The notes under the pieces are model-generated. The model saw only the letters and a program-made list of their open reading frames with translations, was not told the origin of the DNA and searched no databases. Position numbers and translations under genes: made by a program. A DNA stretch of 64,000 bases from Collibacillus ludicampi (GTDB lineage Bacteria; Bacillota; Bacilli; Tumebacillales; BOQE01), in contig NZ_BOQE01000001.1 in the NCBI RefSeq assembly GCF_023705585.1, positions 2,450,710 through 2,514,709 on the forward strand, read 5' to 3'. This document shows, one piece after another, positions 5,027 to 24,168 of the stretch (its first letter is position 1; each line of letters starts with the position of its first letter).

Positions 5027-5338
5027 ATGACCGTTCATGTAACGGAACGTGCAAAAAAATCGCTGGAACACTGGCTGTCTCCGGAGCAACCGGTTGTATA
5101 CTTGCGCGTAATGATGATCATGGAAGGCGGTTGAAGCGCCACGATGACATATGATTTGGTTCTGGATGAACCAAGACCGGATGATGATATTTTCGATTAC
5201 GGCCCCATACATGTGGTCGTAGACCGCGCTTCGCGAATCTATATGGATGACACCGTCACCATCGACTACGATGAGGAAAAAGGCGGGTATGTATTGAAAA
5301 GTCCGAGTCAAATCATCCCGGGGGTATTCAGGTTATAG
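5027..5338 (+). CDS. HesB/IscA-like protein, probable selenoprotein with in-frame TGA (Sec36)
   Basis: One frame runs from the ATG at 5027 (AGGAGGG 8 nt upstream) to TAG 5336-5338, interrupted only by TGA at 5132-5134. Read through, it gives a 103-residue A-type iron-sulfur/HesB fold protein: strand-helix start VTERAKKSLEHWL, the GG-x-SATMTYDLVLDEP motif, then VVVDRASRIYMDD and GGYVLKSP. The TGA sits exactly at the first conserved Cys of the GGCSG motif. The C-terminal CxC of true IscA is absent, as in other HesB-like paralogues. A hairpin 28 nt after the TGA fits a bacterial SECIS. HesB-like selenoproteins are an established family; that this gene is one is inference. The alternative is a nonsense pseudogene, but a mutation landing on the one catalytic Cys with a SECIS behind it would be a striking coincidence. 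The 3' part (from 5161) comes from the integrated element. Confidence 0.75.
5156..5174 (+). promoter_or_regulatory. Candidate bacterial SECIS element
   Basis: A perfect 7-bp stem TTGGTTC / GAACCAA closes a 5-nt loop TGGAT. The apical loop begins 28 nt after the TGA, and its second base is G. Bacterial SECIS elements need a short stem, an apical loop with G in the first two positions, and a UGA-to-loop distance of roughly 16-37 nt; all are met. The stem is coding, so its bases are also constrained by the protein. Confidence 0.6.
5161..5338 (+). repeat. Left direct repeat (attL side), element-borne 3' end of the HesB-like gene
   Basis: It aligns without gaps to 23991-24168. The first roughly 135 bp differ at one base (5203 C versus T), then differences accumulate toward the stop codon (SPSQ versus SPGQ, FRL versus FFL). 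Similarity starts abruptly at 5161, so the crossover should lie near the left edge. The copy next to the integrase is then the element's own and keeps the protein intact. Confidence 0.9.
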
Positions 5339-5456
5339 AAGACGAATGGTAAAGTTCTCTTCGTTAAAAATGGGCAGAACTTTATTACTCGTATACGTGA
5401 ACGTTATCATAATGACTTCCTTCTCCATGTAAAAATGGAAAAAGGAGGTCTTTATT

Positions 5457-6495
5457 TTGGATAAACGAAAAGGTCGTAAGGCAATAAGACAGAGACAAAC
5501 GGTAGTGTATAATAGCCCAAAATACACTTTGGATCAGGCGTTTAATCTTTATACTCACGCCAAAGTGACGGAAGGTTTAAGAGAGAGCACACTCAAAGAT
5601 CACAAAAGAATGTTTGATTATTTTATGCGTTGGCTAGAAAAGTCTCATCATGAAATTCAATATGTGGATGAAATAACTACAAGTCTTTTGCGAGAATATG
5701 TGTATTACATGTTGAACGATCAACAATTATACGAGGGACGAATACACAAACCAAAGGTATCGAAAGTGGGATTAGGTAATCAGACGGTTAATTTACGCAT
5801 TACCAAGCTGAAAGCGTTTTTCAATTTCTTAGTGAATGAAAACATCATATCTGATAATCCTGCGGAAAAAATAAAACGGCTGCGTGTAGAAGAGGATACA
5901 ATCGGAGCATTTACAGATGAGCAAATTGATTTACTGCTTGCGCAACCTGATCGTAGAAATTTTGCTCAGAATCGTGACTACGTATTAATGCGCTTTCTTC
6001 TTGAGTCTGGCTGCCGTATCAATGAGGTCTTATCTCTGAAAATATCGAACATCGATTTTCAAACACGACTTATCACATTGCCCGGATCACAAAATAAGAA
6101 TCGTAGAACGAGAGTCATTCCAATATCAAAAGACATGGTTAGGTTATTGATGGAATTAATCGCAGAAAATAAGACGTATTTTCCTGATACGGAATATGTA
6201 TTTTTAACAAATTACGGTGAACCTATTTCACAAAGAACGATTGGGCGAAAAATTCAAGAGTACGGTAAAAAAGCCGGTATAGCGAATCAGGTGCGTTGTT
6301 CACCGCACACTTTTCGTCATACATTCGCCAAAAACTTCCTTATGGCAGGTGGCGATATTATCGCCTTACAACGCATTCTAGGTCATAGCACAATGGATAT
6401 GGCGCAAATATGTACAGCATACGCCTGATGATTTATTGGCATCGCATGATCGTTACGTCATGAACTTGAAGATGAAACATAAAAAACGCTTATAG
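5457..6495 (+). pseudogene. Tyrosine recombinase/integrase, frameshifted at the catalytic tyrosine
   Basis: TTG start at 5457 behind AAGGAGGT. The N-terminal SAM-like core-binding domain (about 20-130) and catalytic domain are clear: Arg in ESGCRINEVL, HTFRHTF (H-x-x-R) and LGHSTMDMAQI. At about 6407-6412 the frame breaks: the open frame ends in ICTAYA-TGA (stop 6428). Adding two bases (ATAT to ATATAT) gives QIYVQHTPDD and a normal tail ending at 6495. The missing bases fall on the codon for the nucleophilic Tyr. It is either a real inactivation that traps the element or a read error in a TA run. Confidence 0.85.
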
Positions 6496-6523
6496 ATCAT
6501 ATTCACCAGATCATCTCATTATC

Positions 6524-6546
6524 ACCGCCGTTTGGCGGTATTTTTG
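6524..6546 (+). terminator. Intrinsic terminator of the integrase gene
   Basis: ACCGCC (6524-6529) pairs with GGCGGT (6534-6539) around a GTTT loop, followed by A and TTTTT. Confidence 0.85.
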
Positions 6547-6603
6547 CTTTTCAAGCAGGATAATACCCACCTTTACAGCGAATGAATTTGTGAGGTGGGG
6601 TTC

Positions 6604-6795
6604 GTGAAATGTAGGTTAAAGGAGATACTTGAGGAACGTGGCATCAAACAAAAATGGCTATGTGAACGCACTGGTGTTGGAGTTTCACACATGAGTCGAA
6701 TCATAGGTGGAAAGATGATTCCAACACTCGAAGTTGCTTTTAAAATAGCCGCAGCATTAGGATTGACCGTTCATGATATTTGGGAGCCTGATTAG
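6604..6795 (+). CDS. Small Cro/CI-type (XRE) HTH regulator
   Basis: About 63 residues, almost entirely one helix-turn-helix domain: LKEILEERGIKQKWLCERTG then VGVSHMSRIIGGKMIPTLE and an IAAALGLTVHDIWEP closing helix. It probably controls element excision or replication genes. The GTG at 6604 is preferred because the GAGGTGGGG ribosome site overlaps the alternative GTG at 6595. A terminator overlaps the stop codon. Confidence 0.85.
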   Translation: MKCRLKEILEERGIKQKWLCERTGVGVSHMSRIIGGKMIPTLEVAFKIAAALGLTVHDIWEPD

Positions 6796-6804
6796 GCTCT
6801 TTTT
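6784..6804 (+). terminator. Intrinsic terminator after the XRE regulator
   Basis: GAGCCT (6784-6789), GATT loop, AGGCTC (6794-6799), then TTTTT. The stem includes the gene's stop codon. Confidence 0.85.
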
Positions 6805-7028
6805 CATTTGTATGAATTTTTTATTGTATAGACATGCAATTATGGCAAGCACATTGGCGTATACCTTAACCATCATCACGTAACGAATCCCCTTTTCCCT
6901 TTTTCCCACACATTGTACTCGTCCACGCATGTACTTCCCACGTCACACCTGACTTTGCGATGCGGATTCTGATCCTGTTAGATTCAGCGCTGATTCGAGG
7001 CGGATTCAACAAAAGGAGATGATTGTCC

Positions 7029-7235
7029 ATGAACCCGATTTTCTTCTTCAAACTCGAAGAAATGGCACAAAAACTCGTTCAGTATTACATCGATAAGGGG
7101 TACTCTACCGGAAAAGCTGTGCGCCTTGCTCGCGACGTGTTCGACCAAGCGATAAGCAAGTTTTTTGATCTTGGATATGCCGTCGTTCATGATGGATTTC
7201 TTCATATCCTCCAAGCAATTGGGGGTATGTTCTAA
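7029..7235 (+). CDS. Small hypothetical protein, first gene of the FtsK/relaxation cluster
   Basis: 68 residues, mostly amphipathic helix (LEEMAQKLVQYYIDKGYSTG, then ARDVFDQAISKFFDLGYAVV). No family recognised. AGGAG at 7013 is about 11 nt before this ATG; a TTG at 7023 is a second possible start. It is the first of a string of tiny overlapping genes that ends with the FtsK-like ATPase, so it may belong to the same DNA-processing module. Confidence 0.65.
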   Translation: MNPIFFFKLEEMAQKLVQYYIDKGYSTGKAVRLARDVFDQAISKFFDLGYAVVHDGFLHILQAIGGMF

Positions 7236-7354
7236 TGCCTATTTGGCCAGGACTTGTTTTCATCGGTGCGCTTGAAATGCTGAAAGACGAAGCGACAGCA
7301 AATGCGTTTTTTCACGGAGTTGGCTATCTGATTCGCTTGGCTATTGGGGGATGA
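7235..7354 (+). CDS. Tiny hydrophobic protein (39 aa)
   Basis: The ATG overlaps the preceding stop (TAATG), indicating translational coupling. The 39 residues have a hydrophobic start (MPIWPGLVFIGALEML) and end (FFHGVGYLIRLAIGG) flanking a short charged stretch. It could be a membrane or holin-like peptide; no family recognised. Supported by tight packing rather than by similarity. Confidence 0.5.
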   Translation: MPIWPGLVFIGALEMLKDEATANAFFHGVGYLIRLAIGG

Positions 7355-7357
7355 CAC

Positions 7358-7486
7358 ATGAACATCGTCCAAATCATCGGCCTGATACTACTGAGCATGT
7401 CCACCGGTGGATGGATCGAGAACGAGCGAATGACGCGTCAAGTTCACCACCAAGAAGAGGAGGTGTACGGTGATGGGCGCGATTAA
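7358..7486 (+). CDS. Tiny single-TM protein (42 aa)
   Basis: ATG 3 nt after the previous stop. One hydrophobic N-terminal segment (NIVQIIGLILLSMSTGGW) and a charged tail (ENERMTRQVHHQEEE). The tail codes over the ribosome site and start of the next gene (overlap 7473-7486). Function unknown; membrane location is likely. Confidence 0.5.
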   Translation: MNIVQIIGLILLSMSTGGWIENERMTRQVHHQEEEVYGDGRD

Positions 7487-7652
7487 ATATCCTGGCGAAC
7501 CACCGAATCAAAGCATTGTGCTGAATTTGCTTGATATGACAGCGAATCACCAACGTAAAACGATTGTTGTCGTGTTGTTGATTGGTGCGTGGTTCATTTT
7601 CAAGGGTGCGGACATATTAGCTCATTGGGTGGATCGATGGTTTTGGTTCTGA
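7473..7652 (+). CDS. Small single-TM membrane protein (59 aa)
   Basis: ATG at 7473, preceded by AGGAGGTG at about 7458. A polar N-terminus (MGAIKYPGEPPNQS), then one membrane span (TIVVVLLIGAWFIFKGADIL) and an aromatic end (WVDRWFWF). It overlaps the FtsK-like gene downstream by 16 nt, suggesting coupled synthesis and possibly a membrane partner for that ATPase. No family recognised. Confidence 0.6.
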   Translation: MGAIKYPGEPPNQSIVLNLLDMTANHQRKTIVVVLLIGAWFIFKGADILAHWVDRWFWF

Positions 7653-8803
7653 GCGTGAATGAGTATAAGCGACGTGTTGATTACGTTTTGAATCTATGTC
7701 TCAAGCACCCCATAGAAGCCCGCAAATGGCGCTGTGTTGACGTGAAGAAGACGCGATACATGGTTCAACTGACGTATGAGATACCGAGTAAATACTCAGC
7801 GCACGACGTACAAAAGCAGATTGATGCACTTGTGGCGACGTGTGGCGCTGATATCGAAATCGTTGATTATGCTGGCCGGGTTGGTATACGTATCTGCATC
7901 GAAGACTTGCCGAATAAAATCGACGTAGACCACGCCCTAATCGATAAAATGAAGGGTATGGATGTGTTGTTAGGGTATGACCGGAATCGAACTCCCATCA
8001 TCCATACATTCAAGCATCCGCATATGATCATCGCTGGTGAGCCTGGATTCGGAAAAACGGAATTGTTGTTCTTCATCCTTTACCAATGGATCAAGCGCCT
8101 CACACCGAATGACCTCGAAATACACGTTATCGACCTCAAAGGTACATCATTCATCCCATTCATCGGAATCCCTCATCTCCACCCCATCGCAACCGATCTC
8201 GATAAGGCATACGAAACCGTAAAACGAGTGTATGACATCATGATCGACCGACGTGATAAGGTGCTTGAACGAGGTGACAAACAGCTTTTGCGACAACTCG
8301 CACGCAAAAAGCATCTACTCGTTATCGACGAGGCAGGAGTCATAGCACCAAAATTATGGGCCGGTGACGAGAGGAAGACGTGTCAGAAGATCGATGGATA
8401 CTTATCGCAATTGCTCATGGTTGGCCGTGAATTAGGGATACACGTCTTCTATTGCCTACAATACCCGCACAGCGACTATGTGAATCCGCAAATTCGCGCC
8501 TGTGCAGGTGGAAGGCTCTCGTTTCATCTTAGCAAGCCGGAGTTTTCAGAAGTCGTGATAGGCGAACCAGGGGCAGAGAAACTATCCACACCAGGACGTG
8601 CGATATACAAGACGAATAAATCGATTACGATACATGTTCCGTACATGCACGATCTCGAAAAACGTTTGGAGGCGATGAAATGTGACGCGAGAAGAACGAT
8701 GCGAAACGGTGCTACATGCGTTGAAGATAATGCCGATCATGTCCACCGATCAAATCAGTCGTTTCTTTCACTTCGACCGCTACCCGTCCAAACGCGCGAG
8801 TGA
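7637..8803 (+). CDS. FtsK/HerA-type DNA-translocating ATPase
   Basis: 388 residues from the ATG at 7637. Walker A GEPGFGKTE near residue 133 and Walker B HLLVIDEAG near 233; between them IHVIDLKGTSFIPF, typical of FtsK/SpoIIIE and conjugation coupling ATPases. There is no N-terminal membrane anchor, so the small TM proteins just upstream could supply one. In Gram-positive mobile elements an FtsK-like protein commonly sits beside the relaxation or replication protein and moves or loads element DNA. The replication-relaxation gene overlaps its end by 122 nt, showing tight coupling. The exact start is uncertain. Confidence 0.85.
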   Translation: MVLVLSVNEYKRRVDYVLNLCLKHPIEARKWRCVDVKKTRYMVQLTYEIPSKYSAHDVQKQIDALVATCGADIEIVDYAGRVGIRICIEDLPNKIDVDHALIDKMKGMDVLLGYDRNRTPIIHTFKHPHMIIAGEPGFGKTELLFFILYQWIKRLTPNDLEIHVIDLKGTSFIPFIGIPHLHPIATDLDKAYETVKRVYDIMIDRRDKVLERGDKQLLRQLARKKHLLVIDEAGVIAPKLWAGDERKTCQKIDGYLSQLLMVGRELGIHVFYCLQYPHSDYVNPQIRACAGGRLSFHLSKPEFSEVVIGEPGAEKLSTPGRAIYKTNKSITIHVPYMHDLEKRLEAMKCDARRTMRNGATCVEDNADHVHRSNQSFLSLRPLPVQTRE

Positions 8804-9326
8804 GGCGCTTGTGCATTTGCAGCGTGAAAAGTTAGTAGAGGGACAGAGCCGGGCGGTCGGCCAGTACAAGGTTTGGCGCTTGACGAAAAAGGCCCGCGAA
8901 CTTCTCGGCGTTAAAAGGCGTCCTGTTCCGTTTACAGTGCAACTTGATCATTGGCTTGCGCTTGCTGATGCGTACACGACATTGAAATTAGCCGGTGGAT
9001 TGCGCTATTTTATTCCGGAGTTGCGCGAGAAGATACCAGGAACGGATCGGATGTATTGTGGCGACGCATACGTGCATTTTCGTGATATGCAATTTCTGCT
9101 CGAAGTGCAGCGCACGCCTAAATCAAAAGAGGACTGGCGTGAAAAATGGGAACGGTTGCTCGAATGGGATCGCAAGGGAGGAGTTAAGCAAGCGAGTTTT
9201 CAGTGTTTATATAGAGAACCGATCAATCCAAGCGTCGTTGTTGTGACGTCACAAACGTATGATGTGGTGTCAGGCGGATTGATTGTACCGATTACGATAG
9301 TGAAAGATATACGAGAGTTAATATAA
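8682..9326 (+). CDS. Replication-relaxation family protein
   Basis: 214 residues, GTG start behind GGAGG (8668). An N-terminal winged helix (TVLHALKIMPIMSTDQISRF then SKRASEALVHLQREKLV) is followed by a nuclease-like region, YCGDAYVHFRDMQFLLEVQR, with D-x-n-E-V-Q resembling a PD-(D/E)XK core. This layout fits the replication-relaxation family (PF13814) of Gram-positive mobile elements. It overlaps the FtsK-like gene and likely acts on the element origin. The nuclease reading is inference. Confidence 0.75.
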   Translation: MTREERCETVLHALKIMPIMSTDQISRFFHFDRYPSKRASEALVHLQREKLVEGQSRAVGQYKVWRLTKKARELLGVKRRPVPFTVQLDHWLALADAYTTLKLAGGLRYFIPELREKIPGTDRMYCGDAYVHFRDMQFLLEVQRTPKSKEDWREKWERLLEWDRKGGVKQASFQCLYREPINPSVVVVTSQTYDVVSGGLIVPITIVKDIRELI

Positions 9327-9918
9327 TACTCACATTTCTTTAACATAAATTAAGTATTTAGTTGTTACAATTAAATCTGGTATGACGGCATTGCGGGTAA
9401 TCACAGCCATACGGCCCCCGCCACAATCTCCTTAACAATTCAACCGCTCACATATCATCGTGAGCGGCCTTTTTTTACATACATCTATCAGTTAATAAAT
9501 CTTAACAGATAGTCAATGTAGACTATACATTCATCAACTACAATAAGTATGGCGACGACAGTTCAACAACAACTCTCTCCGCTCTTCACATCACGTCAGA
9601 GGCACGCTAAAAATGCGTGTCTCTTCTATTTAACACTTATTTACAGTCCTATTATCGTTAAAGCGCAGTCGTTATGACCGCGCATCATCAGGGGGTAGAA
9701 TGAAACATGTTGCCCAGTGTGCAATGGGGTAAGGGTGATATGTGTACAGTGTACATGACAAATGCGGAATAAGTATGTAATTCGATTTACACAAAATAAA
9801 CAAAACACTCAAGCGTGTGGTCATTGTATAACGGAGGTATATACCAATTGTTCTGGCGGGAACTGATTAAAGCTGCAATCACATTAAAAACCACGCCTAA
9901 AGTGACGTGGTTTGTTTT
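9327..9918. other. Non-coding stretch with hairpins and a short palindrome
   Basis: I see no gene. It holds an intrinsic terminator for the upstream cluster (CCGCTCAC 9444-9451 / GTGAGCGG 9460-9467, then a T run), a second hairpin GAGGCACGC / GCGTGTCTC near 9600-9626 with a T-rich tail, and the operator-like palindrome TGTACA-G-TGTACA at 9743-9755. It could contain a transfer or control site, but nothing proves it. Confidence 0.5.
9444..9478 (+). terminator. Intrinsic terminator after the replication-relaxation gene
   Basis: Perfect 8-bp stem CCGCTCAC / GTGAGCGG with an 8-nt loop, followed by CC and eight Ts. Confidence 0.85.
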
Positions 9919-9919
9919 T
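9889..9919. terminator. Terminator-like hairpin at the end of the lipoprotein gene
   Basis: AACCACG (9889-9895) pairs with CGTGGTT (9906-9912). T runs flank it on both strands, so it can serve the minus-strand lipoprotein gene. Confidence 0.7.
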
Positions 9920-10740
9920 TATTTTGCTGCAGGTACATCAAAAGTGTACGGATTGAAATTAGTTTCGAAATCATCGGTATGTGCGCTGAGAGTGAGTTTC
10001 AATGGTTTATCCGGGGAAAGTCCTTTGAATACAATTACACCACTTGCAGATACTCCAGGCAACAGATCGCTTGGAATCTCTTTGTACGTTTCTTTGGCAT
10101 CAATTTCATGATCACTAATCTTTGAATCCAATTGCTGTCCATCTTGAACTGCTTTAGCTTCAACTACGAAAAAATAAGCTTTATTTTGAGTACCGTTCTT
10201 GATTGTTAAATATACTCTTTGTTCATCCTTTGCAAAATCAATTTTATTTACGGTTAAACTTAGACCGTGTTGATCCAACGTTTTATCGACTTGAAGGCTT
10301 TTGATTGTCGGTGATAGCACACTCAAAGGATCGACTTTCTTCACAGATTCAAGCTGTATTACTGGAGCAGAAATTTTTGCACCAAATGCATTAGTGCCTT
10401 CCATCACACCTTGAACTTTTCCTGTAACTTCTACAAAGTCATTTTCATTGATATCCGCGTTTTTACCGTTGACATTTACGACTACATTATGATCATCAAC
10501 TTGCATTTGAAAAGCGGTCATATCACCAATATTTTTAGTACCGATAAACACTTTGCCTTGCAATGTGGCTTCAGCACCCTTAAACTGATTTGCATCCTGT
10601 AAGAATTGAGCCTTATTTGCTTCCGTAACCTTTGGAGCATTAGAAGAACTAGTTGTTGCGTTACTTCCCCCACAACCTGTCATACTCAGAACAATTGTAG
10701 TAATGATGATTCCTGTTCCTACCTTACCCCATTTTCTCAT
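9919..10740 (-). CDS. Secreted lipoprotein with OB-fold-like and DUF4352-like domains
   Basis: 273 residues from the ATG at 10740 (GGAG 9 nt upstream). A lipoprotein signal peptide with lipobox SMTGC, then a Ser/Thr/Asn-rich linker. Residues about 35-130 look like an OB-fold (FKGAEATLQGKVFIGTKNIG, NENDFVEVTGKVQG), and about 140-270 like the DUF4352 immunoglobulin-like domain (LDQHGLSLTVNKIDF, VYLTIKNGTQNKAYF). It would be anchored on the outer face of the membrane. As element cargo it could act in surface exclusion or attachment, but that is speculation. Confidence 0.8.
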   Translation of the reverse strand: MRKWGKVGTGIIITTIVLSMTGCGGSNATTSSSNAPKVTEANKAQFLQDANQFKGAEATLQGKVFIGTKNIGDMTAFQMQVDDHNVVVNVNGKNADINENDFVEVTGKVQGVMEGTNAFGAKISAPVIQLESVKKVDPLSVLSPTIKSLQVDKTLDQHGLSLTVNKIDFAKDEQRVYLTIKNGTQNKAYFFVVEAKAVQDGQQLDSKISDHEIDAKETYKEIPSDLLPGVSASGVIVFKGLSPDKPLKLTLSAHTDDFETNFNPYTFDVPAAK

Positions 10741-10887
10741 TACAACCAACTCCTTATAATATGTAGAGAAATAAAATAACAAACAGATAAGTTAGATAGT
10801 TATGGATATTATACTATATTTTTCATTCAGTTATTAAAAAATTGTCGTTGTTTCAATATCAACAACACTTTTTTAAGCCAAAAATTA

Positions 10888-10914
10888 ACCACTCACGTTC
10901 GGTATGCGAGTGGT
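10888..10914 (-). terminator. Hairpin terminator downstream of the small-protein pair
   Basis: ACCACTC / GAGTGGT, 7-bp stem. On the minus strand it is followed by a T-rich stretch, placing it at the end of the 10934-11410 genes. Confidence 0.6.
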
Positions 10915-10933
10915 CATTATTTATAACTTTAAA

Positions 10934-11173
10934 TTAGATGTGATCAAAACTTATACTCGACAACATATTTCCTACAAAGTGCACCAATTTTTTTGTATTT
11001 TGGACGTGAGTGTCAGGCACATTGCTATCCGCTGCGAGTTCATAATACACCTCAAACGTCTGGACGAAAAGTTCGGCCAATTCGGCATAGTGAAGCAATC
11101 TCGTATCGTTCCGTAATTGAGGATCGACTTGTCCAATTGGCTGGATAAGTTCGTCGTTGTAATGGATGTTCAT
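10934..11173 (-). CDS. Small hypothetical protein, paralogue of its neighbour
   Basis: 79 residues; ATG at 11173 with AAGGAG 8 nt upstream. It shares the pattern NDE-I-x(6)-P-L-R-D...E-LA...Y-x-ELAAD-N...K-LV with the gene at 11189-11410, so the two arose by tandem duplication. Helical, acidic and soluble; no known family. Probably co-transcribed with the upstream copy. Confidence 0.65.
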   Translation of the reverse strand: MNIHYNDELIQPIGQVDPQLRNDTRLLHYAELAELFVQTFEVYYELAADSNVPDTHVQNTKKLVHFVGNMLSSISFDHI

Positions 11174-11188
11174 TATCACCACTCCTTC

Positions 11189-11410
11189 TTATATGGCTGT
11201 AGTCGCGCGGCCTACGGTTTTCGCAATACGCTCAACAAGTCTCTTCACGTGTAAAACAGAGTTGTCATCATTGCAATCAGCGGCTAGTTCAAGGTATGTG
11301 TTATACGAGTCCACCAAAATAGATGCAAGCTCCACACATCGATCTAGTTTGTCGTCTCTGCGAAGATTAGGTTCTGCTTGTCCGATCCATTCGTCGTTCA
11401 CCCGAATCAT
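11189..11410 (-). CDS. Small hypothetical protein, paralogue of 10934-11173
   Basis: 73 residues from the ATG at 11410, chosen because it aligns with the start of its paralogue and GGGG lies upstream; a longer frame begins at 11500. Conserved features: IRVNDEWIGQ, RDDKLDRCVELA, TYLELAADCN and VKRLVERI. The promoter region faces the divergent XRE gene at 11597, which may control both. Function unknown. Confidence 0.65.
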   Translation of the reverse strand: MIRVNDEWIGQAEPNLRRDDKLDRCVELASILVDSYNTYLELAADCNDDNSVLHVKRLVERIAKTVGRATTAI

Positions 11411-11463
11411 ACACGCACACCCCCATAGATCGTTTAGTTTTATAAATATTAGATTTAGTTTTC

Positions 11464-11532
11464 TAAACATATGATACAACTTGCTAATTATGCTAGTCAA
11501 GCAAAAAGTTTATTATTGCGAACATATGTTTA
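11464..11532. promoter_or_regulatory. Inverted operator-like pair between divergent genes
   Basis: TAAACATATG (11464-11473) and its exact reverse complement CATATGTTTA (11523-11532) lie 49 nt apart in the AT-rich gap. The right copy overlaps the -35 of the XRE gene, a plausible binding site for that small regulator. Confidence 0.45.
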
Positions 11533-11557
11533 CTTTGTTAAACTAAATGTTTATGAT
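11529..11557 (+). promoter_or_regulatory. Sigma-A-type promoter of the XRE gene
   Basis: TTTACT (11529-11534), 17-bp spacer, TATGAT (11552-11557), about 40 nt before the ATG. Confidence 0.55.
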
Positions 11558-11596
11558 ATTGTATTGATGGGAATCAACAAATGAGGGGTTGATTAT

Positions 11597-11806
11597 ATGT
11601 TTTCATATGCTCCATTGGCCGCAACATTACACAAAAAAGGGATTAGCCGAACAGAATTGAAAAGGATGATAGGGGCATCTTCTGCAACTATTGCTAAGAT
11701 CGCCAAGGATGAACCGGTTTCAATGAAGGTCTTAGATGATATATGTACAGCGCTGGAATGTGAGATACAAGACGTGATACAGCACGTGAAAACTAAAGAA
11801 CAATAA
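11597..11806 (+). CDS. Small XRE/YozG-like HTH regulator
   Basis: 69 residues made of one HTH_26-type domain: LAATLHKKGISRTELKRMIG, ASSATIAKIAKDEPVSMKVL, DDICTALECEIQDVI. GAGGGG precedes the ATG. It is divergent from the paralogous small-protein pair and probably represses its own promoter region, where an inverted repeat lies. Confidence 0.85.
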   Translation: MFSYAPLAATLHKKGISRTELKRMIGASSATIAKIAKDEPVSMKVLDDICTALECEIQDVIQHVKTKEQ

Positions 11807-12366: not shown

Positions 12367-12921
12367 TCACGCCTGCCGTTCCTTCAACGCTCGATACAAC
12401 GTTGCTTTTGTAACGCCGGTCATTTCGGTTATTTCTGATACAGTATATTGCTGCGTGTCGTACAACTTTATTGCCTTCTCGATCTTCTTTTGATCCGTTT
12501 TCGGTCGGCCACCAACACGCCCACGTGCTCGTGCTGCTTCTAATCCCGCTTTGGTACGTTCGATAATGACATTTCGTTCAAATTCAGCAAATACCGCAAG
12601 CATACCAAACAATGCTTTTCCCGCAGCTGTCGTTGTATCAATCTTGTCATTCAAGCTCACAAATTCCGCGCCTTTTTTCTGAATCTCGTCCAATGTCATG
12701 ATGAGTTTTACTGTAGAACGTGCAAGTCGATCTAGTTTGTAGACGACTAATATATCACCTTCTCTAAGATTATCTAATGCACGCTCCAACTCTGGTCTAT
12801 CGTCCTTTGCACCGCTCTCCTTCTCTGTATAGATGCGCTCACATCCTGCCTCTTTTAACGCATCGATTTGCATATCCAATGATTGATCGACCGTTGATAC
12901 CCGCGCATATCCGATTCTCAT
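12367..12921 (-). CDS. Small serine recombinase (resolvase/invertase family)
   Basis: 184 residues with the full resolvase layout: catalytic Ser9 in GYARVS, LDRLARS, the E-helix MLAVFAEFERNVIIERTKAG, and a C-terminal HTH (YTVSEITEMTGVTKATLYRA). It probably resolves multimers of the excised element or inverts a segment; the hairpin-rich gap directly downstream may contain its site. A tyrosine integrase handles chromosomal insertion, so a resolution role is more likely. GGAGACGG precedes the ATG on the minus strand. Confidence 0.92.
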   Translation of the reverse strand: MRIGYARVSTVDQSLDMQIDALKEAGCERIYTEKESGAKDDRPELERALDNLREGDILVVYKLDRLARSTVKLIMTLDEIQKKGAEFVSLNDKIDTTTAAGKALFGMLAVFAEFERNVIIERTKAGLEAARARGRVGGRPKTDQKKIEKAIKLYDTQQYTVSEITEMTGVTKATLYRALKERQA

Positions 12922-13929: not shown

Positions 13930-14541
13930 TTATTCAACTACTCCGTGCTTGTTGATTCTCAATCGTTTTCGCTCATCGTCATTGATTCCAGCTACATTTT
14001 TACGTGCGATATTGAAGACCTCCAAGAACTTGTCGCGTTCGGCCTTCACTTCTTCATATTCACGATGCAACTTTTCCAATTGCCTCTTCAATTCATCGCG
14101 TTCACGAGTCACTTCGTCCAATTGTTTCTGTAGCCGTTCTGCATTCGAATCGACGATCTCAACGTTGCGCAAGAAACGAATCAATTCTCGCTGAGTCATT
14201 CGGATCGGTTCATCAGGATCATCTTTTTGTTGTCTTGATACGATAGGCAAATTGCGATTAATTTTGATACGCCTACGTTCTTCTAATGTACGATTCGCTC
14301 GTGCTTGTGCTCCTTGTGCTTTTGCAATTTCGTATTGTGCCGCGTATTTTTCACTGAGGATCGTGTTCCACTTTAGTCGGCAACTGGCCACTGATCTGAG
14401 TCCATTGCTCTCCTCAGAGAACTTTTCACACGCCTCCGTTACTGTACCGCCAGAAGCGACCGTTTCAAGCACCACTTCGGCCAAACGGTCAAACTCTTCT
14501 TCCGTCCAATCTACACGAGGGCCGCCTGGATTACCTGCCAT
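13930..14541 (-). CDS. RsfA-like regulator (Myb-like domain plus coiled coil) carried on the element
   Basis: 203 residues. The N-terminal Myb/SANT-like helix set (DWTEEEFDRLAEVVLETVAS, TEACEKFSE, SCRLKWNTILSEKY) is followed by a long coiled coil (about 120-180: VDSNAERLQKQLDEVTRERD and onward). This is the layout of RsfA/YlbO prespore regulators, like the chromosomal gene at 41945-42562. GGGAG precedes the ATG. On a mobile element it may link element behaviour to sporulation, or simply regulate element genes. Confidence 0.75.
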   Translation of the reverse strand: MAGNPGGPRVDWTEEEFDRLAEVVLETVASGGTVTEACEKFSEESNGLRSVASCRLKWNTILSEKYAAQYEIAKAQGAQARANRTLEERRRIKINRNLPIVSRQQKDDPDEPIRMTQRELIRFLRNVEIVDSNAERLQKQLDEVTRERDELKRQLEKLHREYEEVKAERDKFLEVFNIARKNVAGINDDERKRLRINKHGVVE

Positions 14542-15058: not shown

Positions 15059-15832
15059 GTGGCTCAGGAATACGTATTTTCAAAAGGTTATGAGCAAGCA
15101 AGAGCACAATTCAGGCGTTACGTTACAACAATGCGAAAAATGGTCGTGGAACGCAAAAAACAGAATAATCCTGTGCCACTCCGCGAACGCAAGCGTATGA
15201 TTGAGGCATTAATCGACGCATGGGATCAAGCGTTTATCGATTACAAGGTTAAGGTATGGCCGCCACGATATTGGCTCGATGTACTATATGAGGTGCTTGA
15301 TTACAACTACGCTGGTAGTAGAAATCCTAGAAAGCTCGGTCAAAAGAACGCGTACCAAACTATACGTCAAGAAGAGCGTATGTATGAAACAATATATCCC
15401 TACAACCCACGATACATAAGTAGCCCTCTAGAATCACCTGATGACGATGAAATGAACTATGACGATGAAGACGATGAAAAATTAGTTCCTGCGTATGCGC
15501 AACGAATGGGATTGTTTAAATTCAACTATTCATCAATTGATCCTCGCTCGATAGAGAAATATTCATGTGAATCAATCGTCATCGTACTCGAACACTATGA
15601 CGAACTCAATTACAGAGCTATCTGGCGCGGTGATCATGTTGCTCTGGATATCCTGATCGATATTCGGAACGCACTTCAACAACTAACCGTAAAGCAACGT
15701 CTGTGTCTGGAATTGCACTATCTGCACGATTACACGTTTGTTGATATTGCAAAGAAATTGGGAGTGAGTGACGAGGCAGTACGTAAAAACACTGATGCAG
15801 CGATAAGAAAAATGTCCAAAATATTAAATTGA
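15059..15832 (+). CDS. Sigma-70 region 4-like transcription factor (phage late-activator type)
   Basis: 257 residues, GTG start behind GGAAGG. The last 60 residues are a clear sigma region 4 HTH: LTVKQRLCLELHYLHDYTFV, DIAKKLGVSDEAVRKNTDAA. The N-terminal part has no sigma region 2, only helices and an acidic linker, as in ArpU/Xpf-type phage late regulators. It probably activates the downstream block ending in the primase and tape-measure genes. No other sigma-like gene is seen on the element. Confidence 0.75.
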   Translation: MAQEYVFSKGYEQARAQFRRYVTTMRKMVVERKKQNNPVPLRERKRMIEALIDAWDQAFIDYKVKVWPPRYWLDVLYEVLDYNYAGSRNPRKLGQKNAYQTIRQEERMYETIYPYNPRYISSPLESPDDDEMNYDDEDDEKLVPAYAQRMGLFKFNYSSIDPRSIEKYSCESIVIVLEHYDELNYRAIWRGDHVALDILIDIRNALQQLTVKQRLCLELHYLHDYTFVDIAKKLGVSDEAVRKNTDAAIRKMSKILN

Positions 15833-16998: not shown

Positions 16999-17003
16999 TA
17001 TAG

Positions 17004-17369: not shown

Positions 17370-18830
17370 ATGGAGGCAAACAAAAAACACTCTATGCCAG
17401 AAGAGTGTTTAGATGATGCGAACTATTCATTTAAAAATATTATAATACAAATCGAGCCGATTGTAAAGGCGTTTCACCTATCAGACGTAGGAAATGCTGA
17501 GCGTTTAGCATACTATCATGGCGATAAATTGCGATACTGTCATAGCACTGGCAAATGGCTGTACTGGACAGGCAAACGGTGGCAAATAGATAGTGGGGGA
17601 ACAGAAGTGTATCGTCTGGCCAAAGAAACGGTGCGGAATATCTACCGTGAAGCTGCATTGACTGACGATACTGATACACGTCAAAAGATCTCTAAACATG
17701 CGATTCAATCAGAGAAAGCATCATCAATTCGAGAAATGATTGCGTTGGCGCAAAATGAAGGAGATATACCAATCCACGCCTATGAATTAGACGCGGATCA
17801 ATGGCTATTGAACGTAGAGAACGGAACAATCGACTTGCGCACAGGCAAATTAAGACCGCATTCACGCAAGGACTTGATCACCAAACTCGTTCATACGGAG
17901 TACGATCCAAACGCACAATGTCCGACATGGGAAGCGTTTTTGTGGCGCATCATGAACGGGAACCAGGAATTGATACGTTTCCTACAGAAAGCGGTCGGTT
18001 ATGCGCTCACCGGTGACGTATCTGAACAGGTTATGTTTTTCCTATACGGATACACCGGCAAAAACGGCAAATCCACGTTCCTGAACACGATACGCGAATT
18101 GTTGGACGACTACTCAATCACCATGCAGCCAGACTCGTTCATGGTCAAGCAATCGGATCGCATCTCAAACGATATCGCACGTCTCAAAGGGGTACGTTTC
18201 GTATCCACTATCGAGGGTGAAGAGGGAAAACGTTTGGCCGAATCACTCATCAAGCAATTAACCGGCGGCGATACCATTTCAGCGCGATTCCTGCACCGTG
18301 AATACTTCGATTTCAAACCTACGCACAAGATATTTTTCGCAACCAATCACAAACCGTCGATTCGTGGAACGGACGATGCAATCTGGCGTCGTATTCGCTT
18401 GATACCGTTCGATGTAATAATTCCAGAGCACGAACGCGATCCTAAACTACCGGAAAAATTACGCGCTGAATGGTCAGGTATATTGCGTTGGGCCGTGGAA
18501 GGGTGCTTGCTGTGGCAACGCGAGGGGTTAGGTGTTCCTGGCGCAGTGGTCGAAGCAACGCAAGAATATCGCGAAGAAATGGACGTTATCGGCGCGTTTT
18601 TGGCTGATAAATGCGTCATCGGATCGGGTTATAAAACGCATTCGTCCGAACTGTACGAGGAATACAAAACGTGGTGCGCTGATAATGGCGAATACCAAAT
18701 GACGCAATCAATGTTTGGACGAAAGTTGAAAGAACGGGGATTCGAGAACGTTAAATCTAATGGATATAAAGTTTGGAAAGATATCGGCTTAGCACGAAAT
18801 ATACCCGTCCCCTTTGCGCGTATATCGTAG
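17370..18830 (+). CDS. P4/D5-family primase-helicase (replication protein)
   Basis: 486 residues; GGAGGGAG before ATG. The region 90-210 matches D5_N (DADQWLLNVENGTIDLRTGK). The SF3-type helicase follows: Walker A GYTGKNGKST near 228-237, EGEEG as the Walker B region, and sensor/Arg-finger block FFATNHKPSIRGTDDAIWRR. A C-terminal winged helix (SMFGRKLKERGFENVKSNGY) closes it. The N-terminal prim-pol domain of full P4 alpha proteins is missing, so it is a helicase/initiator that needs another primase. Iteron-like repeats begin on its stop codon, pointing to origin binding nearby. Confidence 0.9.
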   Translation: MEANKKHSMPEECLDDANYSFKNIIIQIEPIVKAFHLSDVGNAERLAYYHGDKLRYCHSTGKWLYWTGKRWQIDSGGTEVYRLAKETVRNIYREAALTDDTDTRQKISKHAIQSEKASSIREMIALAQNEGDIPIHAYELDADQWLLNVENGTIDLRTGKLRPHSRKDLITKLVHTEYDPNAQCPTWEAFLWRIMNGNQELIRFLQKAVGYALTGDVSEQVMFFLYGYTGKNGKSTFLNTIRELLDDYSITMQPDSFMVKQSDRISNDIARLKGVRFVSTIEGEEGKRLAESLIKQLTGGDTISARFLHREYFDFKPTHKIFFATNHKPSIRGTDDAIWRRIRLIPFDVIIPEHERDPKLPEKLRAEWSGILRWAVEGCLLWQREGLGVPGAVVEATQEYREEMDVIGAFLADKCVIGSGYKTHSSELYEEYKTWCADNGEYQMTQSMFGRKLKERGFENVKSNGYKVWKDIGLARNIPVPFARIS

Positions 18831-18955
18831 GGACAGTTTCAGGGACACAGGGATGGTTTGATCGCATTTTTCCCTTTTTCTCTATAAATTTTTTATTTGT
18901 ATATGAAAAACGGAAATTTTAATCCAAACTGTCCCTATCGTCCCTAAACCATCCC
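18830..18955. other. Candidate replication origin: inverted iteron clusters around an AT-rich core
   Basis: The left cluster has GGGACAGTTT (18830-18839), AGGGACAC (18841-18848) and GGGATGGTTT (18850-18859). The right cluster has the same boxes on the other strand: AAACTGTCCC (18926-18935), CGTCCCT (18939-18945) and AAACCATCCC (18946-18955). Between them lie about 65 bp rich in A and T with T and A tracts. Repeats plus AT-rich core next to the initiator gene is the usual origin layout. Confidence 0.6.
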
Positions 18956-19020
18956 CTATTCACACGTCGCTCAATATTGGGCGGCTTATTTATTTTCGTG
19001 CGTGGATTGGAGGTGATTTA

Positions 19021-19245
19021 ATGCGCAACGAAATCTGGCGATTGAATAGTGATTATCTCGCAGCCTACACAGAAGATCCCGATGTATGGCGTAAAATCAA
19101 ACGATCATACGGATTCAAAGTGATGGCTGAATACTACCGCAACGGAAAACTGTTCGCGATGCAATATGTCGTACCGAACGAGAAGAAACGTTCCATTCGT
19201 CATCTTCTCGGCGTGAATGTGACGTGCGATAAAACGGCTGTGTAG
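19021..19245 (+). CDS. Small hypothetical protein (74 aa)
   Basis: ATG behind GGAGGTG. Basic, with WRLNSDYLAAYTEDPDVWRK and IKRSYGFKVMAEYYRNGKLF; it looks like a small nucleic-acid-associated protein. No family recognised. Two perfect small hairpins follow (GGTAAT-TAT-ATTACC and CCCCGT...ACGGGG, 19254-19294). Confidence 0.65.
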   Translation: MRNEIWRLNSDYLAAYTEDPDVWRKIKRSYGFKVMAEYYRNGKLFAMQYVVPNEKKRSIRHLLGVNVTCDKTAV

Positions 19246-19347
19246 TTTAGGTAAGGTAATTATATTACCCCCGTTTGAAAAATCGCTCTACGGGGCTGAT
19301 TTCGCGAAAATCGTACCAAATATGCACTATTTTATCGACGTGGAGAG

Positions 19348-19614
19348 ATGCTTGTGCGTATTGCGCTTGCGGTGAAGCTGAGTACCGTCAATGACGCTCA
19401 CGTTGCATTGATTCGCCTGGTGGAATTGGGGAGCGGTTGGGTGATATCCGAAATGTGTCGCACATTCAGATGTCCGATAAGTTTCGCATATCGACGTGCT
19501 ATTGAATCGGGAATGGCCGAGGCGAGATTGTTGGGTGTTGAGCGCTTGCTAGTGGACGTGACGACAGACGAGCATCCTGAACTCGAAACGCTCGGCGTTG
19601 AACGTCTCGCTTGA
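19348..19614 (+). CDS. Hypothetical protein (88 aa) upstream of the tape-measure gene
   Basis: ATG at 19348 or GTG at 19354 (GGAGAG is better spaced for the GTG). Two repeats of LLGVERL / TLGVERL at the C-terminus and a central helix pair (VISEMCRTFRCPISFAYRRA) that could be an HTH. Its position fits a tail-assembly gene, but there is no sequence proof. Confidence 0.55.
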   Translation: MLVRIALAVKLSTVNDAHVALIRLVELGSGWVISEMCRTFRCPISFAYRRAIESGMAEARLLGVERLLVDVTTDEHPELETLGVERLA

Positions 19615-19648
19615 AAGGGGGTGATGTACAACGGTCATTCGCTATCAG

Positions 19649-19930
19649 ATGCATTGGTTCGATGGCCACTGGAACGCTGATGTCGCGTTGGTTGATTCCA
19701 ACGAAACAATTGACACGTTCACGCTGCATCATCTGGCAGACAAATTGAATCCGGCGATTGAAACCGCGCAGATGCACGCATCGCTGAAGGCGTGGCAAAT
19801 GGGTTATCGCAGTTGTCGTCATGATGTGGATGTGCGTGGATTTGAAGTTTGTTATTTGATTCGTGATTTTTGGGAGGCTGAATTGGATGATCAGACAAAC
19901 TATTATTCCGCAACATGGACAGGATGGTGA
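19649..19930 (+). CDS. Hypothetical protein (93 aa) before the tape-measure gene
   Basis: Open frame ending 5 nt before the tape-measure ATG. The AAAGGGGGTG ribosome site (about 19614-19623) lies 26-28 nt ahead of this ATG, so a non-standard upstream start such as ATT at 19637 may be used. Rich in His, Asp and Trp (HWFDGHWNADVALVDS, SATWTGW). No family recognised. Confidence 0.5.
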   Translation: MHWFDGHWNADVALVDSNETIDTFTLHHLADKLNPAIETAQMHASLKAWQMGYRSCRHDVDVRGFEVCYLIRDFWEAELDDQTNYYSATWTGW

Positions 19931-19935
19931 TATAG

Positions 19936-22400
19936 ATGGCAGCAAGCGCATACTCACTTGAAATAATGATTCGGGCCGTGGATCAGTTTACGGCGCCCAT
20001 ACGAGCAATGCAATCACAAATCTCAACTTTTCAACGATCTATATCCGAAACGACAAAACAAGTTGAGCAACTTAGCAAACGGTTTTCCCAAATTGGAAAA
20101 GTTCCTTTTGGCGGTGGGGGGCTAACATCTGAAACAACGAAACAGGTCGATCAGTTAAGTAAGCGTCTAACCGATATTAACAGATTGGCTGCCGGCAGCG
20201 GTCTACTATTTGGCGGTTCAATGTTAGCTAATGCGATGGCCGAGAATGTTAAACAGGCAGGTGACTTCCTAACCACTCTCACAATGATTCAAGACACGGT
20301 TGGTGCTACAGCCGACCAAATAAAACAAATCCAAAATGTGATTCAGCAAACAAGTGGGAAGACAATATTTAGTGTTCAAGACACGGCTGAAATCGCCAAG
20401 AGGCTCAGTAGTTCAGGTCTGGATGCGCAACAAATTACGCAAACATTGCCTATTTTTACGCAATACGCAGAGGTACAAAAGTTGGGTAAAGGTACGTCAC
20501 CAGACGAAGCCGTTACACAGGCCATATCGAGTGCGCACATGGTAGGTGCTTATACACCAAAGGAACTCTTGAGTTTCCTAGATAAGTATAATAAAGCCAC
20601 GTTCATGACTCCTGGTTCATCATCGGAATTTGCCGACACGTTCAAGTACTTGGCTCCATCGATGCAAGCATTGCATGCGTCTACAGATGACACTTTGTTA
20701 TTAGCGGCGTTATCGAATCGACTCGGTATATTGGGTTCGATGGCAGGCACGAACGCGAGCGACATGATATTGAGAAGTATTAGTGGCCTGTTCGGTGGTC
20801 GTGGAAAAACGCCAAGCGCACAAATGCGCGGATTACATGCATTAGGACTCGATAACACAATCTTCGATAAAAGCGGAAACTTCTTAGGCGTTGCGAATTT
20901 GGTTGCGCAATTGCAGAGGGCCAGTCAAGGTCGCAGTCCGACTGAATTAGCAAAATATTACAAGGATATATTCGGCATGCAAGGTTTAAGGATCGCGCAA
21001 TTACTCTCGTCTGAACGTGGTCAGGATGCGCTACAGTCGATTGTCAAACAAATGCAAAATATGAAGTCGATTTCTCAGATGCAAGAAGACACCAATAAAT
21101 CACCGCTTGGACAGATACAACAGCTACAGACGAACCTACAAAATCTAAAATTGAATGTGTTCATCCAAATGGCGCAATTGTTGAATCCGATATTGCAATA
21201 CTTGAATCAAATCGTAAGCAAAATTCAAGTGTTTGCGGATCAACATCCGAAGATTATGAAATATGTAGCGGCATTTGTCGCAATCACGGGCGGTCTATTG
21301 GCTTTATCCGCTGCTGTTGCCGGTGTGATAGTTTTATTCGGAACGCTTGGAGTTGGTGGATTAGCTGCAGTTGGCGTTATTACTGCTTTTGCCGTTGTCG
21401 CGACACTCATAATCAAATATTGGGGGCCGATCAAGTCGTTTTTCGTCAACTTATGGAACGGCGTAAAATCCACGACTCAATCAGCGTGGCAAGCGATTTG
21501 GGGCGCGATTGGGCCTGCGGTAATGTCTATCTGGCGCACAATCTTCAGCGCTTGCACACAGATAATAGCATTCTGGCGTACAATTTGGCCGATGTTAAAA
21601 CAAATCATAATGTTTGTATGGCCAGCAATTAAGGATTACATTGCGTTCCAATTATTATCAGGACAATTGGAGCCGTTATATGGGCAACGCTGAAAGCGGT
21701 ATGGCCGATTATTGTTGCTGACGTTAAATTTGCATGGACGATGATCAAAAATGTAACACAGCTTACATGGGATATTGTATCAGGCATCATCGTGGTCGGA
21801 CTTGATTTATTGACCGGTCATTGGTCAAAAGCATGGACAGACATAAAATCATATGTCGGCAAAATTTGGCTGGATATCAAAACTGTGGTGTCTGATGGCT
21901 GGAACGGCATCGTCCAACTCGCATCAACTTGGTATTCTACCGCACTAAGTTGGGGCAAGAACGTGGTGCAAGGTATCATCGATGGTATTGTTTCGCTGGC
22001 AAGTAATCTGGCTAGTACTGTAGCAGATTTGGCGGATAGATATATCGTGCAACCATTCAAACATGCGGCTGGTATTAATTCGCCAAGTCGTGTGATGGCT
22101 GAACAAGGTAGATATCTACTTCTGGGCTTACATCAAGGTATGACGGATCAGTATCATCTCAATTTGATTGAACGCGCATCCAACCAGCTTGTTAATGCTG
22201 CCGTACCCGATACATTTGATCGGTACGGGTATGGTGGTTACGGTGGTGGTGACGTTCATTTTCACGGCGACATCATAATCCAAGGAGCCAATAAAGACGC
22301 TAAGCAACTGGCCGATGAGCTAATGCGCGAACTCGGTGTGCGCACACGCACCAACAACATGTCGCGACCAATTGGGCCGAACAGGTTGGTGTTCAATTAA
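19936..22400 (+). pseudogene. Phage tail tape-measure protein, split by a frameshift
   Basis: The first frame (19936-21693) has the tape-measure N-terminus (FTAPIRAMQSQISTFQRSIS, a coiled region), a TP901-type core (GNFLGVANLVAQLQRAS and NPILQYLNQIVSKIQVF) and hydrophobic spans. It ends in LEPLYGQR. Between about 21645 and 21660 the reading passes to another frame, which continues without an own start (IGAVIWATLKAVWPIIVADV) to 22400 with HFHGDIIIQGANKDAKQLAD. One missing base near 21650 would join them into a protein of about 820 residues. It would set tail length, yet no other tail, capsid or packaging genes are present. Real decay and read error are both possible. Confidence 0.82.
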
Positions 22401-22405
22401 AGGAG

Positions 22406-22693
22406 GTGTCACGTGCGCAGTTAATAATTGAATTGCTGCGCACGATCACTCCCGATCATTATTTTTTTAAAAAGAAGGTGAATACTTTGCAAAATGTTGA
22501 TTTATCAAAATACAGAGTCATCAAGATTGGTAAATGTACATTTCTCTCCCCAAAAGATGCACCTCCGATCACAGACTTTTTAGAGGAAGAGTTTAAACGT
22601 ATACACTATAAGAAGTACAAAGAAGAAATTGAGATAAAAATTAAAGCGAAAAAATTATATCCAGATATTTTTGGAAGAAGCAGTATCGATTAA
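22406..22693 (+). CDS. Small hypothetical protein after the tape-measure gene
   Basis: The frame opens with GTG at 22406, on top of the AAAGGAGG site. A TTG at 22487 has a better placed AAGAAGG and would give 68 residues (LQNVDLSKYRVIKIGKCTF...). Lys-rich C-terminal half (EEIEIKIKAKKLYP). No family recognised. The terminator structure follows. Confidence 0.55.
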   Translation: MSRAQLIIELLRTITPDHYFFKKKVNTLQNVDLSKYRVIKIGKCTFLSPKDAPPITDFLEEEFKRIHYKKYKEEIEIKIKAKKLYPDIFGRSSID

Positions 22694-22719
22694 TTTAACG
22701 ACATTCTTTATGCAATAAA

Positions 22720-22800
22720 AAAGCGATAGTTAGTTAAAACTACCGCAAGAGTGTGGGTATATTGTTGTTGCACACTTTGATTTTATCACATTATCGCTTT
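22720..22800. terminator. Nested hairpins, bidirectional terminator
   Basis: AAAGCGATA (22720-22728) pairs with TATCGCTTT (22792-22800) and encloses AGTGTG (22750-22755) / CACACT (22771-22776) followed by TTGATTTT. It lies between the plus-strand block and the convergent cargo gene. Confidence 0.6.
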
Positions 22801-22937
22801 ATATTGATATAACGTTTGTGCGTATTTTGTGAATTTTTGTCGAATTATAGGTGAAGTACTTAATAAGACTATATTTGTTCGCGGAAAATAAGATGCTTTA
22901 TCAATTGTTTAACTATCTATTTCCTTTAGTTTTAAAC

Positions 22938-23576
22938 TCAATAGTATATAACTATATTAATAAAATCTTCTGATTCACCATACAAACGCCAATTAACTCG
23001 TAAATCACTGTTTCTAGTTCGAACAGAAAACTCACCATCTTTAGGTGAGTAAATTGTTCTTATACTTGACACTCCTTCTCCATTGGGGCAATCCAGAAAT
23101 GGAAGTAATTTAAGTCTATCTCTGTTCGGTGGTGGATTTTGTCCACTCCTTTGGCCAAGATGTAACAATTCATTCCACCCTAGTAAAGGTGACCAAGCAG
23201 CAATAAAGGCTCTTTTACCTTTATTACCGCTGGCAAATTCATTACACAGCCAATCGAAGTCGTCTTGAAATGCCTCACTCCAGACCTTTTTCTGTTTTCC
23301 AGTACCACCATACCAATATCTCCAGTATTTAACCTCAATTCTAAAATCCTTGTAATCAATCATTATGTCTTGACCTTTTGCTTTTAGACTATTCGATGAA
23401 TAACGAACCATTTGTCTAAATGGGCCGCCTAGTCTATAGACAATATCCGCCTCGCAAAGATTGTTAATTGCATAATTCGTTTTTTCTCTAATATCCATAT
23501 TGCTGACTAACAAATTAAATTCATCAATAATAATCCTACAATTTGAATCAAAATAATCCAAAATCAATATTATCAC
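22938..23576 (-). CDS. Putative PD-(D/E)XK-type nuclease or defence-like cargo protein
   Basis: Up to 212 residues; the start is uncertain (GTG at 23576, or TTG slightly inside, no strong ribosome site). The central segment GQDIMIDYKDFRIEVKYWR has the D-x(n)-E-x-K arrangement of a PD-(D/E)XK nuclease, preceded by a helix with conserved Arg and Ser (FRQMVRYSSNSLKAK). An Asp/Trp-rich region follows (FQDDFDWLCNEFASGNKGKR, AFIAAWSPLLGWNELLHLGQ). AT-richer than its neighbours, on the opposite strand, and in the cargo position by the right end. A restriction or anti-phage role is inference; no named family recognised. Confidence 0.6.
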   Translation of the reverse strand: MIILILDYFDSNCRIIIDEFNLLVSNMDIREKTNYAINNLCEADIVYRLGGPFRQMVRYSSNSLKAKGQDIMIDYKDFRIEVKYWRYWYGGTGKQKKVWSEAFQDDFDWLCNEFASGNKGKRAFIAAWSPLLGWNELLHLGQRSGQNPPPNRDRLKLLPFLDCPNGEGVSSIRTIYSPKDGEFSVRTRNSDLRVNWRLYGESEDFINIVIYY

Positions 23577-23990
23577 CCAATCTCTTTATTTTTTACTTGA
23601 ATTAATATTACATACTTTTAACTGGTTAGGCAATCGATTCCTATTAGCGATTCACGTATCGCAACAAATGATTGTTTCAACTTTAACTAGTTTGCTCCAC
23701 TCACGCAAAGAGTCGCTGATGATATGTGTAGGCACTGAATAAGGGCGTTCAAGACGAGCGCCCCGTTTTAATTTATTTCGATTTATACACGCATTGATAT
23801 TGGAGTGTAACAAGTCGAGTGAATTTTAGAACAATTGGATTTCAATTTTTATAACGGTATAATAGTGGTTGAATGGAGAACGTTCGGAGTCATTGATAAC
23901 TTTACTATGCGAGTAATGATTGAAAATCGCGAAAAGCCTTAAGTAGTGCGGAATATTCGTTCGCATACTGCCCATTTTTAACAAGTTATA
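23577..23990. other. Right-end non-coding region of the element
   Basis: I see no gene. A TATAAT-like box (GGTATAATAG at about 23857-23866) sits in AT-rich DNA. The stretch ends abruptly at the right direct repeat (23991). It probably holds the integrase arm-binding sites, but I cannot identify them. Confidence 0.4.
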
Positions 23991-24168
23991 TCTGGATGAA
24001 CCAAGACCGGATGATGATATTTTCGATTACGGTCCCATACATGTGGTCGTAGACCGCGCTTCGCGAATCTATATGGATGACACCGTCACCATCGACTACG
24101 ATGAGGAAAAAGGCGGGTATGTATTGAAAAGTCCGGGACAGATTATCCCGGGGGTATTCTTTTTGTAA
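23991..24168 (+). repeat. Right direct repeat (attR side), displaced original 3' end of the HesB-like gene
   Basis: Same reading frame as 5161-5338, ending in TAA at 24166-24168. It lacks the 5' half of the gene, the TGA codon and the left arm of the SECIS stem. It is a gene remnant left by the integration, and the likely host original. Confidence 0.9.

Follow-up and report, generated by a model that had tools for sequence, protein, structure and literature searches.

The hesB-like gene and the boundaries of the element

An element of about 18.8 kb is integrated at the 3' end of a hesB-like gene in Collibacillus ludicampi, within a stretch of 64,000 nucleotides (contig NZ_BOQE01000001.1, positions 2,450,710 to 2,514,709; hereafter the window, whose own numbering is used throughout). 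The host gene, which by its sequence encodes a HesB/IscA-like protein containing selenocysteine (Sec), the predicted Sec insertion sequence (SECIS) in its message, the two ends of the element and the integrase gene are arranged as follows:

5027-5338 (+): HesB/IscA-like selenoprotein host gene of 103 codons with an in-frame TGA (Sec); chromosomal in its 5' part to about 5161, element-derived for the rest
5132-5134 (+): in-frame TGA, the Sec codon in GG-U-SAT, kept in orthologues and accompanied by Sec machinery in the genome
5156-5174 (+): predicted SECIS hairpin TTGGTTC-TGGAT-GAACCAA, 28 nt 3' of the TGA and within the published constraints for bacterial SECIS elements (bSECIS)
5161-5338 (+): attL, left direct repeat, with identity from T5161 (edge of the 7-nt spacer CTGGATG) to the stop codon
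5359-5417 (+): repeats at the left end that match 23888-23985 in inverted orientation; probable integrase arm sites
5457-6428 (+): tyrosine integrase, with its frame interrupted between the conserved motifs GHSTMDM and RKYVQH; catalytic Tyr in another frame (from about 6412 on)
23888-23985 (-): inverted repeats of the right end, which stop 5 nt short of the right repeat; probable arm sites
23991-24168 (+): attR, right direct repeat, which holds the gene's original 3' end in displaced position, has no TGA and is preceded by a 5' flank without a SECIS fold

If its in-frame TGA is read as a stop, the host gene appears broken, or as a short open reading frame (ORF). With X placed at the TGA, the protein matches PF01521 with 50 bits; its best NCBIfam match is NF038090 (IscA_HesB_Se), with 43 bits against a cut-off of 85, and by sequence it is a relative of that model and not a curated member. 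A single TGA is found at the identical position in orthologues from 10 genomes of the order, the majority at 39-59% identity, and the same TGA recurs in orthologues from other families and many genera, down to 36% protein identity. Furthermore, the genome (4.09 Mb in 7 contigs, 99.9% complete) holds a Sec-decoding set with all members above curated cut-offs, namely SelA (618 bits), SelB (391), SelD (418) and tRNA-Sec (67.8), and the SelD gene itself contains an in-frame TGA.

The direct repeats are identical at 168 of 178 bases (94.4%), without gaps and in register at an offset of 18830, with a longest perfectly matching run of 102 bp, which is far beyond chance. The repeat sequence occurs only twice in the genome, as the left and the right copy, which are spaced 18,830 bp apart and enclose about 18.65 kb of DNA. 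The gap-free 178-bp repeats had already been noted in a preliminary description, and they were recovered here by independent repeat detection as well as by base-by-base reading. The left copy is in frame with the host gene and reaches the stop codon, the carried 3' end thus having its own stop. It encodes a tail ending in SQIIPGVFRL, compared to GQIIPGVFFL for the right copy; besides the R/F difference (FRL instead of FFL) described earlier, the copies differ by an S/G change and, as their first difference, by a silent C/T at 5203, most differences lying from 5306 on. The DNA 5' of the right copy is unrelated element sequence that forms no SECIS, and joining the outer flanks yields an open 312-nt gene with a single TGA. 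The left copy is a new 3' end for the host gene, and the right copy is the original tail, displaced.

As DNA, the predicted hairpin is the dyad TTGGTT-CTGGATG-AACCAA, the only perfect dyad with 6-bp arms and a spacer of 5-9 bp in the present-day gene; the reconstructed empty-site gene has one further 6-bp-arm dyad, in its tail. Published bSECIS constraints are a loop of 3-9 nt, a G in the first two loop positions, a stem of 4-16 bp, a distance of 16-37 nt from the UGA and a minimum free energy (MFE) of at most -7.5 (PMC13188914), and the hairpin lies within all of them, with a UGGAU loop, a 7-bp stem, a distance of 28 nt and -8.7 kcal/mol (5132-5175). Codons 9-12 after the TGA (L-D-E following V/A) hardly vary in nucleotide sequence (CTG in 16/16 and GAT in 14/16 sequences), and in these 16 sequences the stem partners go together, GTT with GAA (3/3) and GCT with GAG (13/13). 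The identity between the two repeats starts at T5161, at the inner end of the left hairpin arm, and the next seven bases, CTGGATG, are the dyad spacer. The repeat starts inside the hairpin, and the SECIS is therefore now half host (5' arm) and half element (loop and 3' arm).

Just outside the repeats, CTTCGTTAAAAATGGGCAG at 5359-5377 matches CTTGTTAAAAATGGGCAG, inverted, at 23968-23985, and a second inverted pair is formed by 5384-5417 and 23888-23917. These end sequences are probably the arm sites of the integrase, with the captured gene tail placed between the core and the left arm. The integrase gene (PF00589, E 3e-35) begins 119 bp 3' of the host gene stop. The integrases of relatives read GHSSMDMVRKYVQH; in the window, RKYVQH falls in another frame, and the intact catalytic set including the Tyr, which is needed for present mobility and not for past insertion, is absent from the integrase frame. 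Judged by its reading frame, the element is probably a relic unable to move by itself, unless the frame break is a sequencing error. The preliminary description was right about the repeats and overlooked the in-frame TGA, the start of the repeat in the SECIS and the broken 3' frame of the integrase.

Related integrases and their target sites

Relatives of the integrase were collected from 398 Bacilli genomes and from the family of the best match, and the DNA upstream of each was inspected for targets. Their targets are tRNA-Cys (3), tRNA-Ser (1), tRNA-Sec (3), tRNA-Arg (4), tRNA-Val (3) and tRNA-Leu (1) genes and Cys-type iscA/erpA genes (12), with five unassigned. The integrases at the tRNA-Sec gene (selC) are found in three genomes (L050, L056, L062). 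In a maximum-likelihood tree, the window integrase is sister (100/99) to four integrases located at tRNA-Cys and tRNA-Ser genes. A search of genome contigs with the integrase gave only one distant match, in a Nitrospirae bin.

The 12 integrases at iscA/erpA, which encode A-type Fe-S carriers, lie directly downstream of these genes in at least six families of Bacilli (L051-L055, L059-L061, L063, L065, L066 and L074, assigned by the gene upstream of each integrase). Where both ends were found, the elements have repeats of 69-105 bp at spacings of 13-37 kb, as well as inverted pairs comparable to those of the window at comparable distances from the repeats. The repeats of nine of them all begin no more than 8 nt from one set of codons (GG-FTI), and most extend to the stop codon. 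A-type Fe-S carrier genes are a recurrent landing site in Bacilli. No consistent dyad is seen at the iscA sites. Maximum-likelihood trees group the iscA integrases in a single clade (95/94 and 92/94), separate from that of the window integrase; insertion into the HesB/IscA family was therefore reached independently twice, and the idea that the hesB-Sec and iscA insertions share an origin was rejected.

In the tRNA genes, the repeat of a 12.1-kb element at tRNA-Sec (G152, L056) starts exactly at the anticodon loop, and that of an element at tRNA-Cys (G235) starts 3 nt before the anticodon loop, in the anticodon arm. The fixed repeat starts of the iscA and tRNA elements therefore indicate that integrases of this family have their site at the 5' edge of the repeat. 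Two further repeats (G400, G402) were set aside as crossover markers; they span whole tRNAs and do not locate the crossover. The tRNA-Cys anticodon arm GGT-CTGCAAA-ACC and the SECIS GGTT-CTGGATG-AACC look suggestively alike, but over too short a stretch for this to carry weight.

Element-free loci bear on the same gene. Six relatives carry a convergent fabI and no integrase downstream of the hesB-Sec gene, and in G004 this gene is preceded by the same response regulator-kinase-PerM series as in the window. The element-free loci of the order encode proteins of 39-59% identity and have fabI as right neighbour, whereas the window has an ABC transporter there; the chromosomal context has therefore changed too. 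Together with the shared layout of the related elements, these integrase-free orthologous loci support the earlier proposal that an 18.8-kb element displaces the 3' end of a hesB-like gene and supplies a replacement. Its suggested search for hesB-like genes followed by an integrase, with comparison of empty sites, gave the iscA/erpA elements, the integrase-free loci and a single SECIS-sited element.

Some hesB-Sec loci call for separate mention. In G001 (C1:1196359-1209617), G005 (C6:21147-33175) and G009 (C3), paired SECIS matches at distances of 9-13 kb were rejected as element repeats, and look like two complete hesB-Sec paralogues in each genome. In G002 (C85; L207:13906-14340), hesB-Sec is cut directly 3' of the UGA and followed by about 300 bp of unrelated DNA and then fabI, which may be what an earlier insertion or deletion close to the same SECIS left behind.

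The SECIS as a candidate attachment site

The reading we prefer, with a probability of roughly 0.74, is that a decayed prophage-like element was inserted by a tyrosine integrase into the hesB-like selenoprotein gene, with the SECIS stem-loop as the core of attB. If the family rule on the 5' edge of the repeat is applied to the window, the crossover would lie at the SECIS loop, within CTGGATG, the 7 bp that separate the arms TTGGTT and AACCAA. The attP would carry the hairpin loop, the 3' arm and the remainder of the gene, so that insertion would rebuild both the SECIS and the protein end. The integrase would recognise the SECIS dyad and use it as others use the anticodon arm, its ancestor would have used the anticodon arm of a tRNA, and Sec insertion would persist after integration of the element. 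That the SECIS serves as integrase attachment site, that a lineage adapted to tRNA anticodon arms moved onto it and that the hybrid SECIS keeps UGA recoding alive is, as a combined proposition, slightly favoured over its negation.

Several results weigh against this reading. A SECIS-sited element was found only once among 398 Bacilli, 398 phylum-level and 41 family genomes. A repeat start within this hairpin has a chance of about 3-6% on position alone. In a longer window of this sequence an alternative hairpin is the MFE fold, and Rfam gave no match. The pair count over the SECIS alignment (79% of cells paired, with no shuffle reaching the covariation score) is weak, as double changes occur in one pair only and partners slid by +1 score higher covariation. 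Finally, a crossover within the 169-bp near-identical block is deduced from sequence comparison, for which the element-free loci come from other species only.

The most serious competitor is an ordinary gene-restoring element, in which the crossover could have taken place anywhere in the repeat and the start in the SECIS would reflect coincidence or local sequence conservation. Identity blocks that reach about 250 bp are usual for such elements and do not by themselves reveal the core (PMC10111431), and in the window the first difference between the copies is at 5203, with most of the others from 5306 on. However, nine iscA and two tRNA elements have a fixed 5' repeat edge, which falls in the anticodon arm for the tRNA elements; an element would gain nothing from carrying hesB DNA that lies upstream of the crossover; and the repeat begins at the one perfect dyad of this type that the present-day gene contains. 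Taken together, these points make the ordinary element unlikely.

Two further explanations are far less probable. The repeats could be a tandem or partial (segmental) duplication of hesB instead of attachment sites, with phage genes arriving later, in line with the closeness of the two copies in sequence; yet the right copy starts sharply and lacks the 5' part of the gene, the integrase adjoins the left copy, inverted arm repeats are present at both ends and related elements have the same anatomy, which makes duplication highly improbable. Alternatively, the TGA could be a true stop or a sequencing error and the gene a pseudogene without a SECIS. Assembly errors are conceivable, given that the integrase and tape-measure frames of the element are broken too, but this is hardly credible in view of the complete Sec machinery, the frozen hairpin codons across orthologues, the established status of HesB-like proteins as a selenoprotein family (PMC1794560) and, above all, the same TGA in orthologues of many genera, a conservation that in practice refutes the pseudogene reading.

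Known systems and the contents of the element

Insertion into the SECIS would resemble that of elements in tRNA genes, including the islands at tRNA-Sec (selC), for which the anticodon arm is one sublocation. In both cases the repeat starts in a dyad encoding a conserved RNA hairpin and the element carries the 3' end, and the closest integrases of the window one sit at tRNA-Cys and tRNA-Ser. In contrast to tRNA genes, the hairpin of the window is an mRNA recoding signal within a protein gene, and an RNA signal and a protein end are both restored. Gene-restoring prophages in protein genes, such as those in icd, with an identity block of up to about 250 bp, likewise have an attP with a replacement 3' end that leaves the gene functional (PMC10111431), but in the window the element occupies a selenoprotein gene, and the identity block opens within the SECIS of that gene. 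The preliminary description regarded a protein-gene target as unusual, which is not borne out in that form, elements with a replacement 3' end for a protein gene being well known (PMC10111431, PMC12884075); the unusual feature is the precise position, in the SECIS of a selenoprotein gene.

The Cys-type iscA/erpA elements of Bacilli share with the window an integrase of 37-43% identity, a PF01521 target, a size of 13-37 kb and the same layout of the ends; they differ in their separate integrase clade (92-95% support), their GG-FTI site near the C-terminus and the lack of Sec. Little gene content is shared with them, only the integrase being broadly common. The HesB-like selenoprotein family (NF038090, TIGR01911) has the Fe-S_biosyn domain and the Sec at GG-U in common with the window gene, which differs from other members in being occupied by a mobile element.

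In open-licence papers, no report was found of a SECIS, a selenoprotein gene, hesB, yutM or iscA as attachment site; as far as found, the SECIS as attachment site is new, whereas gene-restoring insertion is well known. If the proposal is true, the preference of integrases for conserved, dyad-symmetric, RNA-coding DNA extends from tRNA genes to an mRNA recoding signal, and insertion depends on an element-borne functional half of the host SECIS, linking mobile DNA to UGA recoding. Hybrid SECIS elements would then be a natural test of which half-SECIS sequences work. In viral contigs, the SECIS core pattern occurs in 73 stretches, about the chance number by a rough estimate, and searches of these contigs with hesB and the integrase gave nothing useful.

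The remaining assigned genes of the element are:

7589-8803 (+): FtsK/SpoIIIE-like ATPase (PF01580, phrog_1358)
8682-9326 (+): replication-relaxation-like replication initiation protein (PF13814, phrog_2190)
12367-12921 (-): serine resolvase/invertase (PF00239, E 8e-49)
13930-14541 (-): phage-type transcription regulator (phrog_16084)
15059-15832 (+): phage-type sigma factor (phrog_3512, PF08281)
17370-18830 (+): D5/P4-family primase-helicase, C-terminal part only (positions 310-755 of 772 of phrog_1829; PF08706; TIGR01613)
19936-22400 (+): tail tape-measure gene in two frames, 19936-21693 and 21741-22400 (PF10145; phrog_28, phrog_58)

Head (capsid), portal, terminase and complete tail genes were not found in Pfam and PHROG scans, and of a complete temperate phage only the regulator, the sigma factor, a truncated primase and a broken tape measure are present, next to many short ORFs without assigned function. 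From this gene content the element is read as a decayed prophage or composite element, a relic of the tyrosine-integrase type. Its resolvase is 68% identical to that of the iscA element of G024.

Another integrase of the same genome (G000:C1:258709-259924), 31% identical to that of the window and just downstream of a tRNA-like gene on the minus strand, probably marks a second integrated element. Two or three consecutive, co-oriented integrase genes, like recombinase trios, are found in the L061 region (G231:C59:4656-9814), at G156:C9:21925-26115 and at G014:C1:2638953-2640576. Near the right end of the window element, a 212-aa orphan ORF (22938-23576, -) gave no match in Pfam or the defence library; it has an IEVKYW motif that recalls nuclease folds, and is possibly cargo.

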